Shown here: positions 26,476 through 34,504 of the stretch, one piece after another
Position numbering within the stretch: position 1 is the stretch's first letter
How the letters are laid out: each line of letters starts with the position of its first letter
From: Acidobacteriota bacterium
Lineage (GTDB): Bacteria; Acidobacteriota; Vicinamibacteria; Vicinamibacterales; UBA8438
Direction of reading: 5' to 3'
Assembly: GCA_021296475.1 (NCBI GenBank)
Contig: JAGWAJ010000004.1
Coordinates: 1 to 58,919, forward strand
Length of the DNA: 58,919 nucleotides
Notes under the pieces: model-generated
The model's database searches: none
What the model was told of the DNA's origin: nothing
Seen by the model: only the letters and a program-made list of their open reading frames with translations
Translations under genes and position numbers: made by a program

Positions 26476-27237
26476 TCAGGGCAGCGGCGGGAGCGTGAGC
26501 CGGCTGCCGGGCGGACGCTGCACGTCGAACGCCTTGAGCGTGTAGTTGACCAGCGTGTAGTGGCCGACGAGGCCGGCGATGTCCATCAGGCCCTGGTTGC
26601 CGAAGATGCGCTGCGCGGCCTCGAACGCCTCGCGGCTCAGCTTCGGCTCCCGGATCAGCTCGCGGACGACGCGGATGATGGTCCGTTCCGGCTGATTCAG
26701 TCCGGCCACGTCGCCGGCGTCCGCCAGCGGAGTGTCCCACCGGAGCAGCTCGATGATCTCCTCCTCGAGCCCCGCGTTCAGCCCCAGCGGCTCGTGGGCG
26801 GACCATTCGTACTGGCTGTTCAGCGCCCGCGCCGCGGTCAGGATGGCGAGCTCGGCGAGCCGCTGGTCCCGGTTGCCGTCGGCCCCGAAGCGCAGGTAGG
26901 TGCTGGCCGGGAACAGGTGCTCGGCCATGGGCGGGCTGTACATCCACATCCCGATAGGGCCGCGCAGGCCGGTGGCGTAACGGCTGTCCGGGTGCACGAT
27001 GACGTCGTAGGCCCGCCGGCCGTCCGCGTCGAGCGATTCGCGCGCGATCCGCGGCAGCCGCGCCCAGGAGTCCTCGTGGACGTCCGGCGGGATGTCCTCG
27101 GGCGTCACGACGTGCGGCGTGAAAGTCTCGCCCTGGGCCGCCGCGGCGGCGGCGCCGGCCGCGCCGACGACGACGACGGAATCGCAGGCGGCGAGCACGG
27201 ACAGGGAGAGCACAAGGGCGGAGAGCCTCAGAATCAC
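26476..27237 (-). CDS. Carboxymuconolactone decarboxylase-like lipoprotein
   Basis: 253-aa protein with a lipobox LSVLAACD, so probably exported and lipid-anchored. The body fits the carboxymuconolactone decarboxylase/AhpD-like helical fold: RLAELAILTAARALNSQYEWSAHEP followed by ERTIIRVVRELI and a C-terminal YTLVNYTLKAF. The AhpD redox CxxC is absent, so peroxidase activity is unlikely. It may act on a small cyclic or aromatic acid. AGGAGG lies upstream of the ATG. Divergent from the radical SAM gene. Confidence 0.8.
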   Translation of the reverse strand: MILRLSALVLSLSVLAACDSVVVVGAAGAAAAAAQGETFTPHVVTPEDIPPDVHEDSWARLPRIARESLDADGRRAYDVIVHPDSRYATGLRGPIGMWMYSPPMAEHLFPASTYLRFGADGNRDQRLAELAILTAARALNSQYEWSAHEPLGLNAGLEEEIIELLRWDTPLADAGDVAGLNQPERTIIRVVRELIREPKLSREAFEAAQRIFGNQGLMDIAGLVGHYTLVNYTLKAFDVQRPPGSRLTLPPLP

Positions 27238-27334: not shown

Positions 27335-28696
27335 ATGTCGCTGAATCATCTCGCCACCCGCTTCGGTTGCTCCTGGCCCTGGAGCACGCTCGTGCTCTCC
27401 TGCGACGGGCGGGTGGTCTGCGGCTGCGCCGACCCGTACGTGCAGCGCGTGCTGGGCGACGCGCGCGCACAGACGCTCACCGAGATCTGGAACGCCCCGA
27501 CGATTCGGGGCCTGCGGGCCGACCTCAACGCGGGCGGCTCCCGGTTCTGCGGCGACTGCCCCCTCAAGCTGCCGCTGACCGGAGACGCGGCGCCCCGCGT
27601 CCGTGCGGTCGACGCAGGGCCGCTGCCCTCCCGCCTCTACGTCGAGTGCACCGCGGCGTGCAACATCTCGTGCTTCGAGGCCTGCTGCGCACCGGAGACC
27701 GGGATCACGCGGACCCGGCAGGCCGGCATGCTCGACTTCGATCTCTTCGCGCGCGTGGTCGACGAGGCCGGTCCGGGGCTCGCGCGGATCGACTTCTTCA
27801 ACTACGGCGAGGCGTTCCTGCACAAGCGTGCCGTGGAGATGTGCGAGTACATCAAGCAACGGTTCCCGCAGACCTATCTCTACACGAGCACCAACGGACT
27901 GGCCCTGAGCGAGGCGCAGGCCATCCGGCTGGTTCACTCCGGCATCGACGAGGTCACCTTCTCGATCGACGGCGCGTTCCCCGAGAGCTACGCCCGCTAC
28001 CGGCAGCGCGGGCGACTCGACGTGGCGCTACGCACCCTGCGGACGATGGCGGACGAGAAGCGCCGGGCCGGCCGGGACCTGCCGTTCCTCAACTGGCGGT
28101 ACATCCTGTTCCGCTGGAACGACAGCGCGACCGAGATGGACCACGCCCGCCGGCTGGCGGCCGAGATCGGCGTCGACCGCCTGACGTGGGAGATCACCGA
28201 CCATCCCGAGTCGGCCTACTCCCGCCGCTTCGCCCCGGGCACGCCGGGGCATGCGGCGATTCGACGCGAGATCTGGGACGACAACAACCTGGGCAACGCG
28301 ATACCGGGCGCCACCCCGCGCGCCCGCATCGACCTGCCGGCGCGCGTCCCGGGGCTGCCCCTGCTCGGGCGGCGCGGTGGCCGGATCCGCCTGCGAACGC
28401 GCGTCCGCAACCTCTCGAGTCGGCCGTTCCCGGCCCAGGCGACCTACGGCCGCCGCCTCGTGCGGCTCGGCGCCCAGCTCTGCACGCCCGACGGAGCGGT
28501 GGCGAACCGCGATCACGCGCGCGCCTGGCTCCCTGCCACGCTCCCGCCGCACGGCGCGACCGAGGTGCCGATCGAGGTCCCGGTGCCGGACGTGCCGGGG
28601 CGCTACCGGCTGAAGCTCGACCTCGTCGCCGAGGGCATCGACTGGTTCGAGGCGTGCGGGTCGCCGACGACGAGTCGGCCGTTGCTGGTCTGGTAG
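27335..28696 (+). CDS. Radical SAM protein with N-terminal SPASM-like domain and C-terminal beta-sandwich
   Basis: 453 aa. Residues 1-~80 look like a SPASM-type auxiliary Fe-S module: CDGRVVCGCADPY, TLTEIWNAPTIRGLRADL and FCGDCPL. The radical SAM part follows, beginning YVECTAACNISCFEACC, then FFNYGEAFLHK and TSTNGLAL, the usual GGEP-like and beta-strand 4 regions. Cysteines fall at 105, 109, 113, 117 and 118, so the standard CX3CX2C spacing is not met; CX3CX3C is. The last ~110 residues (VPGRYRLKLDLVAEGIDWFE) resemble beta-sandwich domains appended to glycan-processing enzymes. ATG at 27335 chosen; an ATG at 27284 is possible. Substrate unknown; modification of a peptide or glycan is the likeliest class of role. 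Confidence 0.78.
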   Translation: MSLNHLATRFGCSWPWSTLVLSCDGRVVCGCADPYVQRVLGDARAQTLTEIWNAPTIRGLRADLNAGGSRFCGDCPLKLPLTGDAAPRVRAVDAGPLPSRLYVECTAACNISCFEACCAPETGITRTRQAGMLDFDLFARVVDEAGPGLARIDFFNYGEAFLHKRAVEMCEYIKQRFPQTYLYTSTNGLALSEAQAIRLVHSGIDEVTFSIDGAFPESYARYRQRGRLDVALRTLRTMADEKRRAGRDLPFLNWRYILFRWNDSATEMDHARRLAAEIGVDRLTWEITDHPESAYSRRFAPGTPGHAAIRREIWDDNNLGNAIPGATPRARIDLPARVPGLPLLGRRGGRIRLRTRVRNLSSRPFPAQATYGRRLVRLGAQLCTPDGAVANRDHARAWLPATLPPHGATEVPIEVPVPDVPGRYRLKLDLVAEGIDWFEACGSPTTSRPLLVW

Positions 28697-28717: not shown

Positions 28718-29176
28718 ATGCAGAGACGCGACTGGCGTGCGGTGGCCGCGCTGACCGCCGCCTTTACGCTGACGGCCGGGGTCGCCTTCACCGTCGCCGC
28801 CTCTCCGCCGGCTGGCGGCCGGAGCGTGCAGGCCGCCGCAGCGCCGCTCTACCGCTGCACGGACGCGACGCGCGTCGAGGCGGGGCCGGTCGGCTTGACG
28901 CTCTGCGATGCCGAACCGACCGGGGAGCTTGTCGATCGCGCCGAACGCGACAACCTGCAGGTGCGCTCCGGCGCCCTCGTGGTGACGGTCGCGCCCGGCG
29001 GAGTCGCCGCCCGCGAGGGGTTGGTGCCGAACGACATGATCTTCCGCGTGGCCGGGTCCGACGTGGATGGAGGCGGGCCGGCGGGCGCGCGCCTCTCGGA
29101 CGTCGGGGCGGCGAGCGACACCCTCGTCAACTTCCTCCGCGCAGGGCGCCCCTACCGCGTCAAGCTGCGGCGCTGA
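28718..29176 (+). CDS. Secreted protein with PDZ-like domain
   Basis: 152-aa exported protein. The N-terminal hydrophobic stretch (residues ~9-30) is a signal peptide or membrane anchor. The rest carries a PDZ-like fold: GALVVTVAPGGVAAREGLVPNDMIFRVAG resembles the substrate-binding half of HtrA/C-terminal protease PDZ domains, then TLVNFLRAGRPYRVKLRR. No protease domain is present. It is 5 bp upstream of the hupE-like gene and likely co-transcribed, perhaps assisting assembly of a membrane protein or metal transporter, which is inference. Confidence 0.72.
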   Translation: MQRRDWRAVAALTAAFTLTAGVAFTVAASPPAGGRSVQAAAAPLYRCTDATRVEAGPVGLTLCDAEPTGELVDRAERDNLQVRSGALVVTVAPGGVAAREGLVPNDMIFRVAGSDVDGGGPAGARLSDVGAASDTLVNFLRAGRPYRVKLRR

Positions 29177-29181
29177 TCGGC

Positions 29182-30360
29182 GTGCATCGCCTGCCGGCCT
29201 CCCTCCTGCCGACCTCCCTCCTGCCGACCCTTTCGCTCGCCGTCGCCACCGTCGGGCTCACGCTGCTGGCTGCGGCGGGACCGCTCGTCTCGACTGCGCT
29301 TGCCCACCCGTTGGCGTTCACCGAGGTGACGCTGACGCTCGGCCCCGGCGGCGCCTTCTCGGCCGACATCCGGTACGACCTCGACGCGCTCGCGCTCGGC
29401 GTTCCGATCGACACCGACGACGCCGCGCTGGCCGCGGCCCTCGCGGCGCTGCCGCCGGACGAGCTCGACGAGCGGCTGGGGCGCCTGCGGCGCCTCTTCG
29501 AGCGACGCGTGCGGGTGCGCTTCGACGGCGATCCCGTGCCCTTCGAGGTCGAGTTCCCCGACTACGGAGCGCCGGAGACCACGACCGCCGCCATTCCGAC
29601 CGTGCTCGGGCTGACGGCACGGCTCACGGGGACGATTCCCCCCGAGGCCGCGACGGTCGGTTTCTTCGCCTCCCGCGCGTTCGGAGAGGTGCATCTGACC
29701 ATCGTCGACGCCTCGCGCGGCGAAGAGACCCGCTCGATCCTCGAGCCGGGTGCCCGCAGCGAGCCCCTGGACCTGACCGGACCGATCCTCCCGCCCGGCC
29801 CGTGGGAAACCGCCTGGCGCTACCTGCGTCTCGGATTCGTCCACATCCTGCCGGCGGGTGCGGATCACATCCTGTTCGTGCTGGCGCTGTTCCTGCTGAG
29901 CGCGCGGCTTCGGCCCCTGGTCTGGCAGGTCACGGCGTTCACCGTCGCCCACGCCGTGACGCTCACGCTGGCGGCGCTCGGCGTGGTCGCCCTCGCTCCC
30001 CGCATCGTCGAGCCGCTCATCGCGCTGTCGGTCGCGGGCGTCGCCGTCGAGAACGTCCTGACCGACCGTCTCACGCGCTGGCGTGCGGCCGTGGTGTTCG
30101 GGTTCGGCCTGCTGCACGGCCTCGGCTTCGCCGGCGTGCTCGGCGAGCTGGGCCTCCCGGAGCAGGGGCGGCTTCTCGCGCTCGCGGCGTTCAACGGGGG
30201 TATCGAGCTCGGGCAGCTCGCGGTTATCGCGGGGGCCGCGGCGGCGCTCGGATGGTGCCGCGCGAAGCCGTGGTACCGCCGCCGCGTGACCGTACCGCTC
30301 TCCTGCGGCATCGCGCTTACCGGCCTGGCCTGGGCCGTGGAGCGCACCCTCGGCGGCTGA
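29182..30360 (+). CDS. HupE/UreJ family membrane protein
   Basis: 392-aa protein. After a signal-like N-terminus ending in ALAHPLAFTEV there is a ~200-residue extracytoplasmic domain, then about six hydrophobic segments. The HupE/UreJ motif block is FVHILPAGADHILFVLALFLL, followed by AHAVTLTLAALGVV and GLLHGLGFAGVLGELGLP, with the His residues thought to bind metal. Proteins of this family are linked to Ni2+ or other metal uptake, and long acidobacterial versions have an extra periplasmic domain. GTG start 5 bp after the PDZ gene; no hydrogenase or urease genes are nearby. Confidence 0.85.
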   Translation: MHRLPASLLPTSLLPTLSLAVATVGLTLLAAAGPLVSTALAHPLAFTEVTLTLGPGGAFSADIRYDLDALALGVPIDTDDAALAAALAALPPDELDERLGRLRRLFERRVRVRFDGDPVPFEVEFPDYGAPETTTAAIPTVLGLTARLTGTIPPEAATVGFFASRAFGEVHLTIVDASRGEETRSILEPGARSEPLDLTGPILPPGPWETAWRYLRLGFVHILPAGADHILFVLALFLLSARLRPLVWQVTAFTVAHAVTLTLAALGVVALAPRIVEPLIALSVAGVAVENVLTDRLTRWRAAVVFGFGLLHGLGFAGVLGELGLPEQGRLLALAAFNGGIELGQLAVIAGAAAALGWCRAKPWYRRRVTVPLSCGIALTGLAWAVERTLGG

Positions 30361-30378
30361 CCCCGCGAGCCCGTGTCA

Positions 30379-30396
30379 GGGCGGCCAGGGCCGCCC
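30379..30396. terminator. Terminator hairpin between hupE-like and DUF6787 genes
   Basis: GGGCGGC (30379-30385), loop CAGG, GCCGCCC (30390-30396). A compact 7-bp GC stem between convergent genes, with no T-tract. Confidence 0.5.
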
Positions 30397-30407
30397 GGCC
30401 CCACGAT

Positions 30408-30710
30408 CTAGGCACCCGCCACGCTGCGGCTGATCAGGCGCCCCATCGCCCGCATCTTGCTCCAGAAGAAGTCGAATTGCCCCAGCAGCGTGCCGTACGC
30501 GAGCAGGAGGACCTGGTAGATCGGGAGCATGATGATGAGATAGATCGTCCACTGCAGCCAGCCGGGCGCCACCGTGGGCAGGAGGTACCCCATGACCGGC
30601 TCCTTGACCCACAGCGTCGTCGTGCCGGCAAGGGCGAAGGCCGCGAGAATGGCGACCACCCCGACCGGCCCGACACCCCAGCGACTCCGCATGCGCTCGA
30701 CAATCGGCAT
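30408..30710 (-). CDS. Small membrane protein, DUF6787-like
   Basis: 100-aa protein (MPIVERMRSRWGVG...). A hydrophobic helix follows with VAILAAFALAGTTTL, then WTIYLIIMLPIYQVLLLAYGTLLGQFDFFW, giving at least two membrane spans and a basic tail. The pattern P-x-Y-Q-x-LLL-x-YG-x-LLGQ-x-FFW is that of the small DUF6787 family, whose function is unknown. A TTG three codons upstream is an alternative start; ATG is preferred with GAGG nearby. Short inverted repeat TGAGA/TCTCA at 30730-30744 lies upstream. Confidence 0.7.
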   Translation of the reverse strand: MPIVERMRSRWGVGPVGVVAILAAFALAGTTTLWVKEPVMGYLLPTVAPGWLQWTIYLIIMLPIYQVLLLAYGTLLGQFDFFWSKMRAMGRLISRSVAGA

Positions 30711-30866
30711 CTTCGTCAACCGCCTCGATTGAGATCGAGTCTCACTTTTCCGCGGCGATCCTACACCGCCGCCGCTCGGCCCGCCAAATGGAGGCCCGCG
30801 GAGCGCCGCGTGCTAAGATTTTGGGGCTGCAACGGACCGGGCATTTCATCTCAGAGAGGTTCGGCG

Positions 30867-33074
30867 ATGACGATGGCGAAACACGGCGCGGTCGCGCGCA
30901 TGGCGCTTGCGGCACTGTGCACGACGCTGCTGGCCGGCTCCGCGCAGGCGCAGGACTGGCCGAGCTGGCGCGGCCGCTCCCAGACCGGGGTCTCGACCGA
31001 CACCGGGCTCGTCTCGAGCTGGTCGGTGGACGGGGACAACCTCATCTGGTTCCAGGAGTACATCGGCCGCTCCACCCCCGCCGTCTTCGACGGGCGCGTC
31101 TGCGCCAACGGGCGCACCGGCGACGGCGTCTCCAAGAAGGAGATCGTCACCTGCTGGGACGCGGAGGACGGCACCAGGCTCTGGGAGCACGCCTTCAGCA
31201 TCGTCAACACGACGGTCCCGTTCAATCGCGTCGGGTGGGGCAGCGTGACCGGCGACCCGGAGACCGGCTACCTCTACGCGATGAACATCGACGGCCATCT
31301 GCACTGCTTCGATCGCGACGGGGCAATCGTATGGAGCTGGCGGCTCGGTGAGGATCTCGGCCGCGCGTCGGGCTACGGGGGCCGGACGTCGACCCCGATC
31401 ATCGACGAGGACCGGCTGATCCTCGGAGTCATCGGCTCCATCTGGGGCGATCTCGGAGGGCCTCCGACGCATCGTTACGTCGCGTTCGACAAGGCGAACG
31501 GCCGCATCCGGTGGATCTCCACCCCCGGCGGCCGCCCGGCCGACCTCAACACGCAGTCGGTGCCGATCGTCGCCGTCGTCAACGGCCAGCGTCTCATCAT
31601 CGACGGCAACGCCGACGGGCACATCTACGCCCTCCAGGCGCGCACCGGACGCAAGGTGTGGGGATTCCGCCTCAGCCAGCGCGGCATCAACGTCTCCCCC
31701 GTCACCGACGGCTCGACGGTGTACGTGGCCCACAGCGAGGAGAACATCGACCAGGGAACGATGGGCCGCGTCGTCGCCATCGACGCAACCGCCGAGGGCG
31801 ACATCACGGCGACCGGCGAGAAGTGGCGCATCAACGAGCTGGCGGTCGGGTTCGCGTCGCCGTTGCTCAAGGACGGCACGCTCTACGTCATCGACAACTC
31901 CGCCAACCTGTTCGCCATCGACGCCGCCGACGGGACGGTGCGGTGGGAACATAGCGTGGGCACGGTCGGCAAGGCGTCGCCCGTCTGGGCCGATGGCAAG
32001 CTGTTCGTCACCGAGGTCAACGGCAACGTGCGCATCCTCGAGGCGGGGGAAGACGGCGCGACGGAGTTGGACCACGACGAGCTCGAGGTGTCGGACGGAC
32101 GCTACGCGGAGATCTACGGCTCGTTCGCCTCCGCCTACGGCCGCCTCTACGTGACGGCGGAGTCGGGCATCTACTGCATCGGCGACCCTGATGCGCCGTT
32201 CGAGCCGGCGCCCGCCGAGACGCCGCCCCTCGCGCCGGAGACGCCGGCCGACGGTGTCGTCGCGAGCATTCAGGTGGTGCCCGCCGAGGTGATCGCCGGG
32301 GCCGGGCAGCCGGTCCGCTTCCGCGTGCTCGCGTTCGACGCCAACGGGCGGGCGCTCGGCGAACGGGACGCGGTCTGGACCCTCGACGGCCTGACGGGCG
32401 CGCGCCTGCGCGTGAACGGCGAGTTCACGTCGCCGCCGCAGGCCGCCAACCAGGCCGGGCGCGTAATCGCCACCGTCGGAGACGTCTCCGCCGCGGCGCG
32501 CATCCGGGTCTTCTCGCCGCTGCCCTGGACGGAGACGTTCGAGAGCGGCCGGCCGCCGTACTGGATCGGCGGGGGCGGCAGCCTGCAGGTGGTCGACGAA
32601 GGGGGCGAGCAGCTCTTCCGCAAGGGAGCCTCGCGCACCGGCATCCACCGGCACGCGATCTACATGGGGCCTTCGTACCTGTCGGGTTACACCGTGCAGG
32701 CGGACGTGATGTCCACGCAGCGCGGCCGACGGCGCCCCGATATCGGTCTCATCAACGCCGGCTACACCATGGACCTGCAGGGCAACCACCAGCGCATCGA
32801 GGTTCGCTCCTGGGCGGCCGAGCTGCGCATGGCGGAGCGGTTCCCCTTCGCGTGGGAGCCGGACACCTGGTACACGCTCAAGCTGCGCGTCGACGCCGAC
32901 GAGGAGCGGGCCGTCATCCGCGGCAAGGTCTGGCCGCGCGACGATGCCGAGCCCGACGAGTGGACGGTGACGGTGGAAGACCCCGAACCGGTGCAGAACG
33001 GCAGCCCGGGCCTCATCGGCTACTCACCCATAGACATCTTCTACGACAACGTCCGCGTGATGGAGAACCGATGA
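30867..33074 (+). CDS. PQQ-type beta-propeller protein with Ig-like and C-terminal sugar-binding-like domains
   Basis: 735-aa secreted protein with signal peptide MAKHGAVARMALAALCTTLL...AQAQ. Repeated blade motifs such as DWPSWRGRSQTGVS, YLYAMNIDGHLHCFD, YALQARTGRKVWG and LFAIDAADGTVRWEH define a PQQ-like WD propeller (~25-440). A linker rich in Pro and Ala leads to an Ig-like strand set (IQVVPAEVIAGAGQPVRFRV) and a C-terminal jelly-roll-like region (TFESGRPPYW ... FYDNVRVMENR). The catalytic Asp/Glu and Trp-dock residues of true PQQ dehydrogenases are not recognisable, so it may be a structural or binding propeller. The stop overlaps the next gene start. Confidence 0.82.
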   Translation: MTMAKHGAVARMALAALCTTLLAGSAQAQDWPSWRGRSQTGVSTDTGLVSSWSVDGDNLIWFQEYIGRSTPAVFDGRVCANGRTGDGVSKKEIVTCWDAEDGTRLWEHAFSIVNTTVPFNRVGWGSVTGDPETGYLYAMNIDGHLHCFDRDGAIVWSWRLGEDLGRASGYGGRTSTPIIDEDRLILGVIGSIWGDLGGPPTHRYVAFDKANGRIRWISTPGGRPADLNTQSVPIVAVVNGQRLIIDGNADGHIYALQARTGRKVWGFRLSQRGINVSPVTDGSTVYVAHSEENIDQGTMGRVVAIDATAEGDITATGEKWRINELAVGFASPLLKDGTLYVIDNSANLFAIDAADGTVRWEHSVGTVGKASPVWADGKLFVTEVNGNVRILEAGEDGATELDHDELEVSDGRYAEIYGSFASAYGRLYVTAESGIYCIGDPDAPFEPAPAETPPLAPETPADGVVASIQVVPAEVIAGAGQPVRFRVLAFDANGRALGERDAVWTLDGLTGARLRVNGEFTSPPQAANQAGRVIATVGDVSAAARIRVFSPLPWTETFESGRPPYWIGGGGSLQVVDEGGEQLFRKGASRTGIHRHAIYMGPSYLSGYTVQADVMSTQRGRRRPDIGLINAGYTMDLQGNHQRIEVRSWAAELRMAERFPFAWEPDTWYTLKLRVDADEERAVIRGKVWPRDDAEPDEWTVTVEDPEPVQNGSPGLIGYSPIDIFYDNVRVMENR

Positions 33075-34504
33075 CTCGATACGGGCTGATAACTGCAGTC
33101 GCCGCGCTGGCCGCGGTCACCGCCATGCCGGCATCCGCGCAGGATGTCGCGATGTTCGGCAACACGCCGTCCCGCAACATGGTGTCGGACGAGACCGGCA
33201 TCGTCAGCGAGTGGGACGCGGACGCCGGAATGAACGTGCTCTGGTCGCAGCCGGTCGGCTCGCAGGCCTACGGCGGCCCGGTCGTCGCCAACGGCCGCGT
33301 CTACGTCGGCCGCCGCGACCCGTCCATCGAGGGCGACAAGGGCGTCGTCATGGCGTTCGAGGCGGATACCGGCGAGTTCATCTGGCAGATGGTGCACCCG
33401 AAGCTCTCGGCCGGACGGGTGAACGACTGGCCGCTCCAGGGCGTCTGCTCGACGGCGTTCATGGAGGGGGACCGGATCTACTACGTCTCGAACGAGGCGC
33501 ACGTCATCTGCCTCGACGCCAAGGGCTTCGCGGACGGCAACGACGGGCCGTTCACAGAGGAGATCGACACCGGCGCCATTGCCGGCGACATCGTCTGGTC
33601 CTACGACATGATCGGCGAGCTGGACGTCTTCCCTCACAACCTCGCCACCGGATCGCCGCTCATCGTCGGCGACGTGCTCTTCACGGTGACCAGCAACGGC
33701 GTCGACGAGGGGCACGTGAACATCCCGTCGCCCTTCTCCCCCGACTTCATCGCCCTCGACAAGAACACCGGCGAGCTGCTGTGGGAGAGCAACCCGGTGG
33801 GCGAGAACGTTCTGCACGGCGCCTGGACGAACCCCGCCTACGGCGTCATCGACGGGCGCCCGCAGGTCGTCTTCGCCGGCGGCAACGGCGTCGTCTACAG
33901 CCTCGACCCCGCCACCGGGGAACTCCTCTGGGAATTCGACTGCAACCCCGAGGACTCCGAGTGGATCCTCGGCGGGCGCGGGACCCGCAACAACATCCTC
34001 TCGACGCCGGTCATCTACGACGACAAGGTCTACATCGGCGTCGGGCAGGATCCGGAGCACGGCGAGGCCCCCGGCCACTTCTGGGTGATCGACGCCACCG
34101 GCAGTGGCGACGTCACCGACACGCATGCCGTGTGGCATCGGGGCGGGGAAGACTTCTACCGCACCATGTCGACCGCGGCCATCGCGGACGGTGTGCTCTA
34201 CATCCCGAGCCTCTCCGGCTTCCTGCACGCCCTCGACCCGCAGACCGGCGAGGAGTTCTGGACCTACGACACCTTCGCCGCCGTCTGGGGCTCTCCCTTC
34301 GTCGTCGACGGCAAGGTCTTCCTGGGGGACGAGGACGGCGACGTGGTCGTCCTGCGCGCCGGCAGGGAGATGGAGGTCATCGGCGAGTACAACCTGGGCG
34401 CCGCGGTCTATTGCACTCCGATCGCCAAGGACGGCGTGCTCTACATCCTGACCCGCAACCGCATCTGGGCCTTTCAGGAGGGCGCCCAGTCCGACCCGCT
34501 GTAG
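33071..34504 (+). CDS. PQQ-type beta-propeller secreted protein
   Basis: 477-aa exported propeller. A signal peptide ends ASAQD, then blade repeats include YVGRRDPSIEGDKGVVMAFEADTGEFIW, FIALDKNTGELLWES, YSLDPATGELLWEFD and FLHALDPQTGEEFWTYD. ATG overlaps the previous stop (ATGA), so the two propeller genes are translationally coupled and likely act together outside the cytoplasm. Redox activity cannot be confirmed because PQQ-site residues were not clearly found. It converges on the M28-PDZ peptidase. Confidence 0.82.
   Translation: MTRYGLITAVAALAAVTAMPASAQDVAMFGNTPSRNMVSDETGIVSEWDADAGMNVLWSQPVGSQAYGGPVVANGRVYVGRRDPSIEGDKGVVMAFEADTGEFIWQMVHPKLSAGRVNDWPLQGVCSTAFMEGDRIYYVSNEAHVICLDAKGFADGNDGPFTEEIDTGAIAGDIVWSYDMIGELDVFPHNLATGSPLIVGDVLFTVTSNGVDEGHVNIPSPFSPDFIALDKNTGELLWESNPVGENVLHGAWTNPAYGVIDGRPQVVFAGGNGVVYSLDPATGELLWEFDCNPEDSEWILGGRGTRNNILSTPVIYDDKVYIGVGQDPEHGEAPGHFWVIDATGSGDVTDTHAVWHRGGEDFYRTMSTAAIADGVLYIPSLSGFLHALDPQTGEEFWTYDTFAAVWGSPFVVDGKVFLGDEDGDVVVLRAGREMEVIGEYNLGAAVYCTPIAKDGVLYILTRNRIWAFQEGAQSDPL

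Follow-up and report, generated by a model that had tools for sequence, protein, structure and literature searches.

A permuted twitch radical SAM protein with a putative CX3CX4C cluster motif in Acidobacteriota

The gene located at positions 27335-28696 of the window, that is, of the whole 58,919-nucleotide stretch of Acidobacteriota DNA under analysis, encodes a radical SAM protein in which a SPASM/twitch domain stands ahead of the barrel and in which the conserved cysteine triad C109/C113/C118 points to a CX3CX4C motif, two residues longer than CX3CX2C. The reading that we consider somewhat probable is that of an active twitch radical SAM enzyme, with a domain order swapped compared to the BtrN type, that would catalyze a BtrN-like oxidation. 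A broader proposal, in which a permuted twitch family coupled to an FW/Ig-like domain would have a cluster loop varying between X2, X3, and X4 with an active CX3CX4C site, and would act on a new substrate, is put forward as possible but rather doubtful.

Domain layout and cluster cysteines

The features of the gene, with the basis of each assignment, are the following:

27335..28696, + strand: permuted twitch radical SAM protein, 453 aa (translation; full-length orthologues at 64-89% identity)
27368..27562, + strand: N-terminal SPASM/twitch domain, residues 12-76 (PF13186, cysteine conservation, BtrN twitch alignment)
27647..28057, + strand: radical SAM domain, residues 105-241 (PF04055, Foldseek)
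27647..27649, + strand: C105, a lineage-specific cysteine, not a conserved ligand (homologue conservation)
27659..27688, + strand: CX3CX4C motif, with C109 at 27659-27661, C113 at 27671-27673, and C118 at 27686-27688 (close and distant homologues)
27683..27685, + strand: C117, a variable position (homologue conservation)
27797..27823, + strand: FFNYGEAFL... at residues 155-163, which corresponds to the GGE motif of SAM binding (conservation)
28316..28693, + strand: C-terminal beta-sandwich, putatively NBR1/FW Ig-like, residues 328-453 (PF16158, model, Foldseek)

A longer open frame starts upstream, at 27092, but the start was set at 27335, at the MSLN start common to the orthologues. The reversed domain order claimed in the original prediction was borne out, since the SPASM match (residues 12-76; E 2.3e-9, 37.8 bits vs a cut-off of 21.5) and the following Radical_SAM match (residues 105-241; E 1.5e-8, 35.4 bits vs a cut-off of 29.5) both lie above their Pfam thresholds, the latter domain being matched in 48/48 orthologues. 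The C-terminal position usual for the auxiliary domains of SPASM/twitch enzymes, which are described as C-terminal extensions (PMC9012708), is thus not the one found here. The barrel itself extends past the Radical_SAM match, to about residue 320, and its fold matches viperin, HydE, NifB, and AprD4 in Foldseek searches. Besides, the SAM-site motifs NYGE and STNG are intact in this family: in homologue alignments, N156, Y157, and F161 are invariant, and G158 and E159 nearly so.

Regarding the cluster site, the cysteines read in the original prediction at positions 105, 109, 113, 117, and 118 are all present, and no spacing among them gives CX3CX2C. Their conservation was scored in 59 homologues, 51 close and 8 distant. 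C113 and C118 are each kept in 51/51 close and 8/8 distant sequences, and C109 in 50/51 and 8/8, respectively. C105 is found in 49/51 close homologues, being Ser or Thr in the two others and Pro in 8/8 distant ones, while C117 is replaced in 11 of the 59 (Ile in 5/51 close homologues, Val or Ala in 6/8 distant ones). Because both C105 and C117 vary in this way, the motif is read as CX3CX4C, and the alignment proposed along with the original prediction as a way of finding the three conserved cysteines singles out C109, C113, and C118. The CX3CX3C spacing of the title of that prediction fares differently. A cluster ligated by C105, C109, and C113 would be in agreement with a spacing that does exist in the window protein and with the frequency of C105 in close homologues, but it is hardly probable at all, given that C105 gives way to Pro in every distant homologue and to Ser/Thr in two close ones, that C118 never varies, and that the first motif cysteine of canonical relatives aligns with C109 and not with C105. 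This motif was rejected on conservation. In addition, CX3CX2C, whose presence in close homologues would speak against the odd motif, was not found in any of these, and a sequence error behind the motif was rejected as 82 genomes agree.

The conserved spacing is therefore not the canonical CX3CX2C of the radical SAM superfamily. Nevertheless, this motif is only described as "usually" present (PMC9692996), exceptions such as ThiC being known, so that CX3CX4C is compatible with membership of the superfamily. No papers on CX3CX4C or on an N-terminal SPASM/twitch domain were found in the open-access literature, subscription papers lying outside the search, and no CX3CX4C protein was encountered among published or solved ones either, so that binding of the cluster by this loop is a prediction. 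The AlphaFold2 model, structure prediction of the cluster site having been suggested with the original prediction, is good overall (pLDDT 84.7) but falls below 50 in the loop, at residues 109-112 and 116-127. Among more remote homologues in which the twitch likewise precedes the barrel, CX3CX3C occurs in two (L102, L104) and CX3CX2C in three (L101, L103, L111); the order of these spacer changes was left unsettled by the radical SAM domain tree because of its long branches.

Distribution, gene loss, and neighbourhood

An orthologue is present in 82/193 genomes of the class, a count that includes G175/L110 (39-41% identity) and a few fragments at contig ends. This distribution, together with the fact that the window gene differs from its nearest relatives mostly at codon position 3 (113 of the 170 differences from the L032 locus), indicates that the gene is not a product of chance, and purifying selection on it is, judging from these sequence comparisons, intact. 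Homologues in other Acidobacteriota classes show roughly 42-48% identity. Outside the phylum, the data come from a scan for close relatives, in which 84,980 species genomes were searched with short exact peptides; it yielded 39 loci, which with two exceptions bear the label Acidobacteria or that of one of its subgroups. The loci L060 and L066, titled Cyanobacteria and Acidimicrobiia, have an acidobacterial gene order and are probably mislabelled bins.

Broken copies also exist. The gene carries an in-frame TAG in G155 and a C109Y replacement in the related G156 (locus L050, the sole C109 exception), which suggests that this lineage may be losing it. Fragments of the gene lie between lpxC and the gene for an 88-aa protein in the sister genomes G169, G170, and G174 (L153, L154, L155), while G168 has none there, which shows repeated loss. 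Such copies, in addition to the abnormal cysteine spacing, would fit a degenerate radical SAM fold devoid of a functional cluster. This is, however, very unlikely for the family, as the three cysteines and the SAM-site motifs are kept among proteins at 64-89% identity as well as in distant homologues, the broken copies being exceptions.

In the usual locus, ECF sigma and STAS genes precede the 88-aa gene, behind which stands the radical SAM gene; next come lpxC and uvrA, both assigned from sequence, in the opposite orientation. The 88-aa gene stands directly upstream on the same strand in 68/82 class genomes carrying the radical SAM gene, mostly 1-205 nt away. This proximity raises the question of whether the radical SAM protein could be a peptide- or protein-modifying maturase of the upstream protein, as SPASM/twitch enzymes often are peptide maturases; PqqE, SuiB, and MftC have been reviewed (PMC9012708). 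Yet the 88-aa gene occurs in 168/193 genomes of the class, many of them without the radical SAM gene, and is therefore unlikely to be an obligate partner. Its own company is that of the ECF sigma and STAS genes, and no copy of it was found next to the second-tier homologues of other classes. Moreover, in the genus of the window (G000, G163, G164) and in G185, the 88-aa locus is present and the radical SAM gene lies elsewhere: in this genus, the radical SAM gene has moved away from the 88-aa locus. The two genes are likewise apart in G086 and G145. Weakened by both the presence/absence pattern and the relocation, the maturase explanation is considered unlikely. The 88-aa family is conserved and without a Pfam match, an example being the gene G000:C78:23673-23933 (-) of locus L128 (G000:C78:14000-32000).

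More generally, no operon partner common to the whole radical SAM family was found, the neighbours differing by lineage. In L107-L109, the homologue sits behind recR-like, roadblock, and Arf/Gtr-like GTPase genes, the last two of which resemble an mglB-mglA pair in all three loci. It is accompanied by anti-sigma-like and CpxP-like genes in L105, some of these neighbour assignments resting on sequence alone, and preceded by a polysaccharide deacetylase-like gene, assigned in the same manner, in L099. Downstream of the gene in the window (28718-34504), a PDZ-like protein, a HupE/UreJ protein, and two PQQ/BamB-like beta-propellers are encoded; no aminoglycoside genes were seen nearby. Because no neighbour is common to the family, a soluble metabolite or a glycan-type molecule is the most likely substrate, more so than something encoded by a constant neighbour.

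The C-terminal domain and the proposed reaction

The original prediction also assigned to the C-terminus a beta-sandwich of the kind that glycan enzymes carry. The sandwich is supported by AlphaFold2, which models the isolated domain with a pLDDT of 91.8, and glycosidase accessory sandwiches are indeed among its Foldseek matches. The identity appears, however, to be that of an NBR1/FW Ig-like domain: the FW domains of NBR1 (4ole, top match) and ILRUN (6vhi) were retrieved with TM values of 0.56-0.64, and PF16158 (N_BRCA1_IG) gives weak matches in 28/48 orthologues and none in the window protein at E 1. Nor are its carriers mainly glycan enzymes, since 9/10 of those sampled in Acidobacteriota are class I methyltransferases and one is glycosidase-like. 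Three tandem copies of the domain are found in L137, L138, and L139, the last two of which Pfam assigns to the class I methyltransferases.

These data bear on the possibility that the enzyme modifies a cell-surface polysaccharide or a lipid-linked glycan, recognition of the glycan falling to the Ig-like domain. It would be consistent with the action of BtrN, AprD4, and cytosylglucuronate decarboxylase on sugars or cyclitols, with the glycosidase accessory sandwiches among the fold matches, and with the deacetylase-like gene ahead of the L099 homologue. On the other hand, most copies have no glycosyltransferase or polysaccharide cluster around them, their neighbours being housekeeping genes, and the NBR1/FW domain is mainly carried by methyltransferases, while its eukaryotic counterpart binds protein (PMC9233695). 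We regard this possibility as rather improbable.

In the favoured reading of a BtrN-like oxidation, a [4Fe-4S] cluster held by the three cysteines of the CX3CX4C loop would cleave SAM to give the 5'-deoxyadenosyl radical, which would abstract a hydrogen atom from the substrate. An auxiliary cluster fully ligated by cysteines would then take up an electron, thereby completing a two-electron oxidation as in BtrN. Among the twitch cysteines, C12, C29, C31, and C72 are present in 59/59 homologues and C75 in 58/59, C29 or C31 being the candidate for the fourth auxiliary ligand. As a guess, the Ig-like domain may hold the substrate or a partner. The twitch fold is also found in non-oxidative enzymes such as MoaA.

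If true, a CX3CX4C active site would be one for which we found no published precedent. The spacer between the last two cysteines, usually of two residues, has four here and three or two in relatives, and would offer a direct test of how far the loop tolerates insertion. In the same line, the permuted twitch would test the function of an auxiliary cluster from either end of the barrel.

Comparison with known families

Reversed order, the cluster cysteines, and the C-terminal sandwich were taken together in the original prediction as marks of a separate subfamily with an unassigned substrate. Both the separateness and the lack of an assigned substrate stand; the window protein lies below every NCBIfam cut-off. 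The best scores, both over the radical SAM core, are those of TIGR04317 (W_rSAM_matur, a tungsten cofactor oxidoreductase maturase; 86 bits vs 380) and TIGR04311 (rSAM_Geo_metal; 83 bits vs 400), whose models place the radical SAM part first. The order itself is not unique, since NF033640 (N_Twi_rSAM) also has an N-terminal twitch followed by the radical SAM part, although no characterised protein with this arrangement was found. The L094 homologue matches this model weakly but co-linearly over most of its length, while the window protein reaches 26 bits vs a cut-off of 170, with a pairwise E of 0.017 to one true member, and the members found in the phylum carry canonical CX3CX2C motifs (CNLMCRMC, CNFKCRSC). 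The reversed order is therefore already covered by NF033640, and the CX3CX4C family is separate from it. Remote relatives with the canonical order, barrel then SPASM, also exist (L112, by Pfam, and L118).

Among solved structures, viperin, HydE, and AprD4 with paromamine are further fold relatives. AprD4, a radical SAM diol dehydratase (PDB 6fd2), matches over 280-315 columns at 19-20% identity; its cluster motif is a non-canonical CX3CX3C, a spacing unlike CX3CX4C, and we know of no N-terminal twitch in this enzyme. The C-terminal domain resembles the NBR1/ILRUN FW domain (PF16158) by its fold and a weak sequence match, and differs from it by the protein context.

When the family HMM was compared with PDB sequences, BtrN, a 2-deoxy-scyllo-inosamine dehydrogenase (PDB 4m7s/4m7t), was the best match (E 4.6e-11), with cytosylglucuronate decarboxylase, NifB, and SkfB as other solved relatives. 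The BtrN match covers the radical SAM part (chain 21-135) and the twitch part (186-256) in swapped order. BtrN differs by this order, by its lack of an FW/Ig-like domain, by its known aminocyclitol substrate, and by its catalytic cysteines C16/C20/C23, which form a CX3CX2C motif (PMC9012708); the similarity in sequence is weak. Like the present family, BtrN combines a barrel with a single-cluster twitch, of which four cysteine positions could be aligned. Its auxiliary cluster has four cysteine ligands and is the likely electron acceptor in the two-electron oxidation (PMC9012708), and this ligation is matched by the predicted ligands C12, C29 or C31, C72, and C75, plus one extra cysteine.
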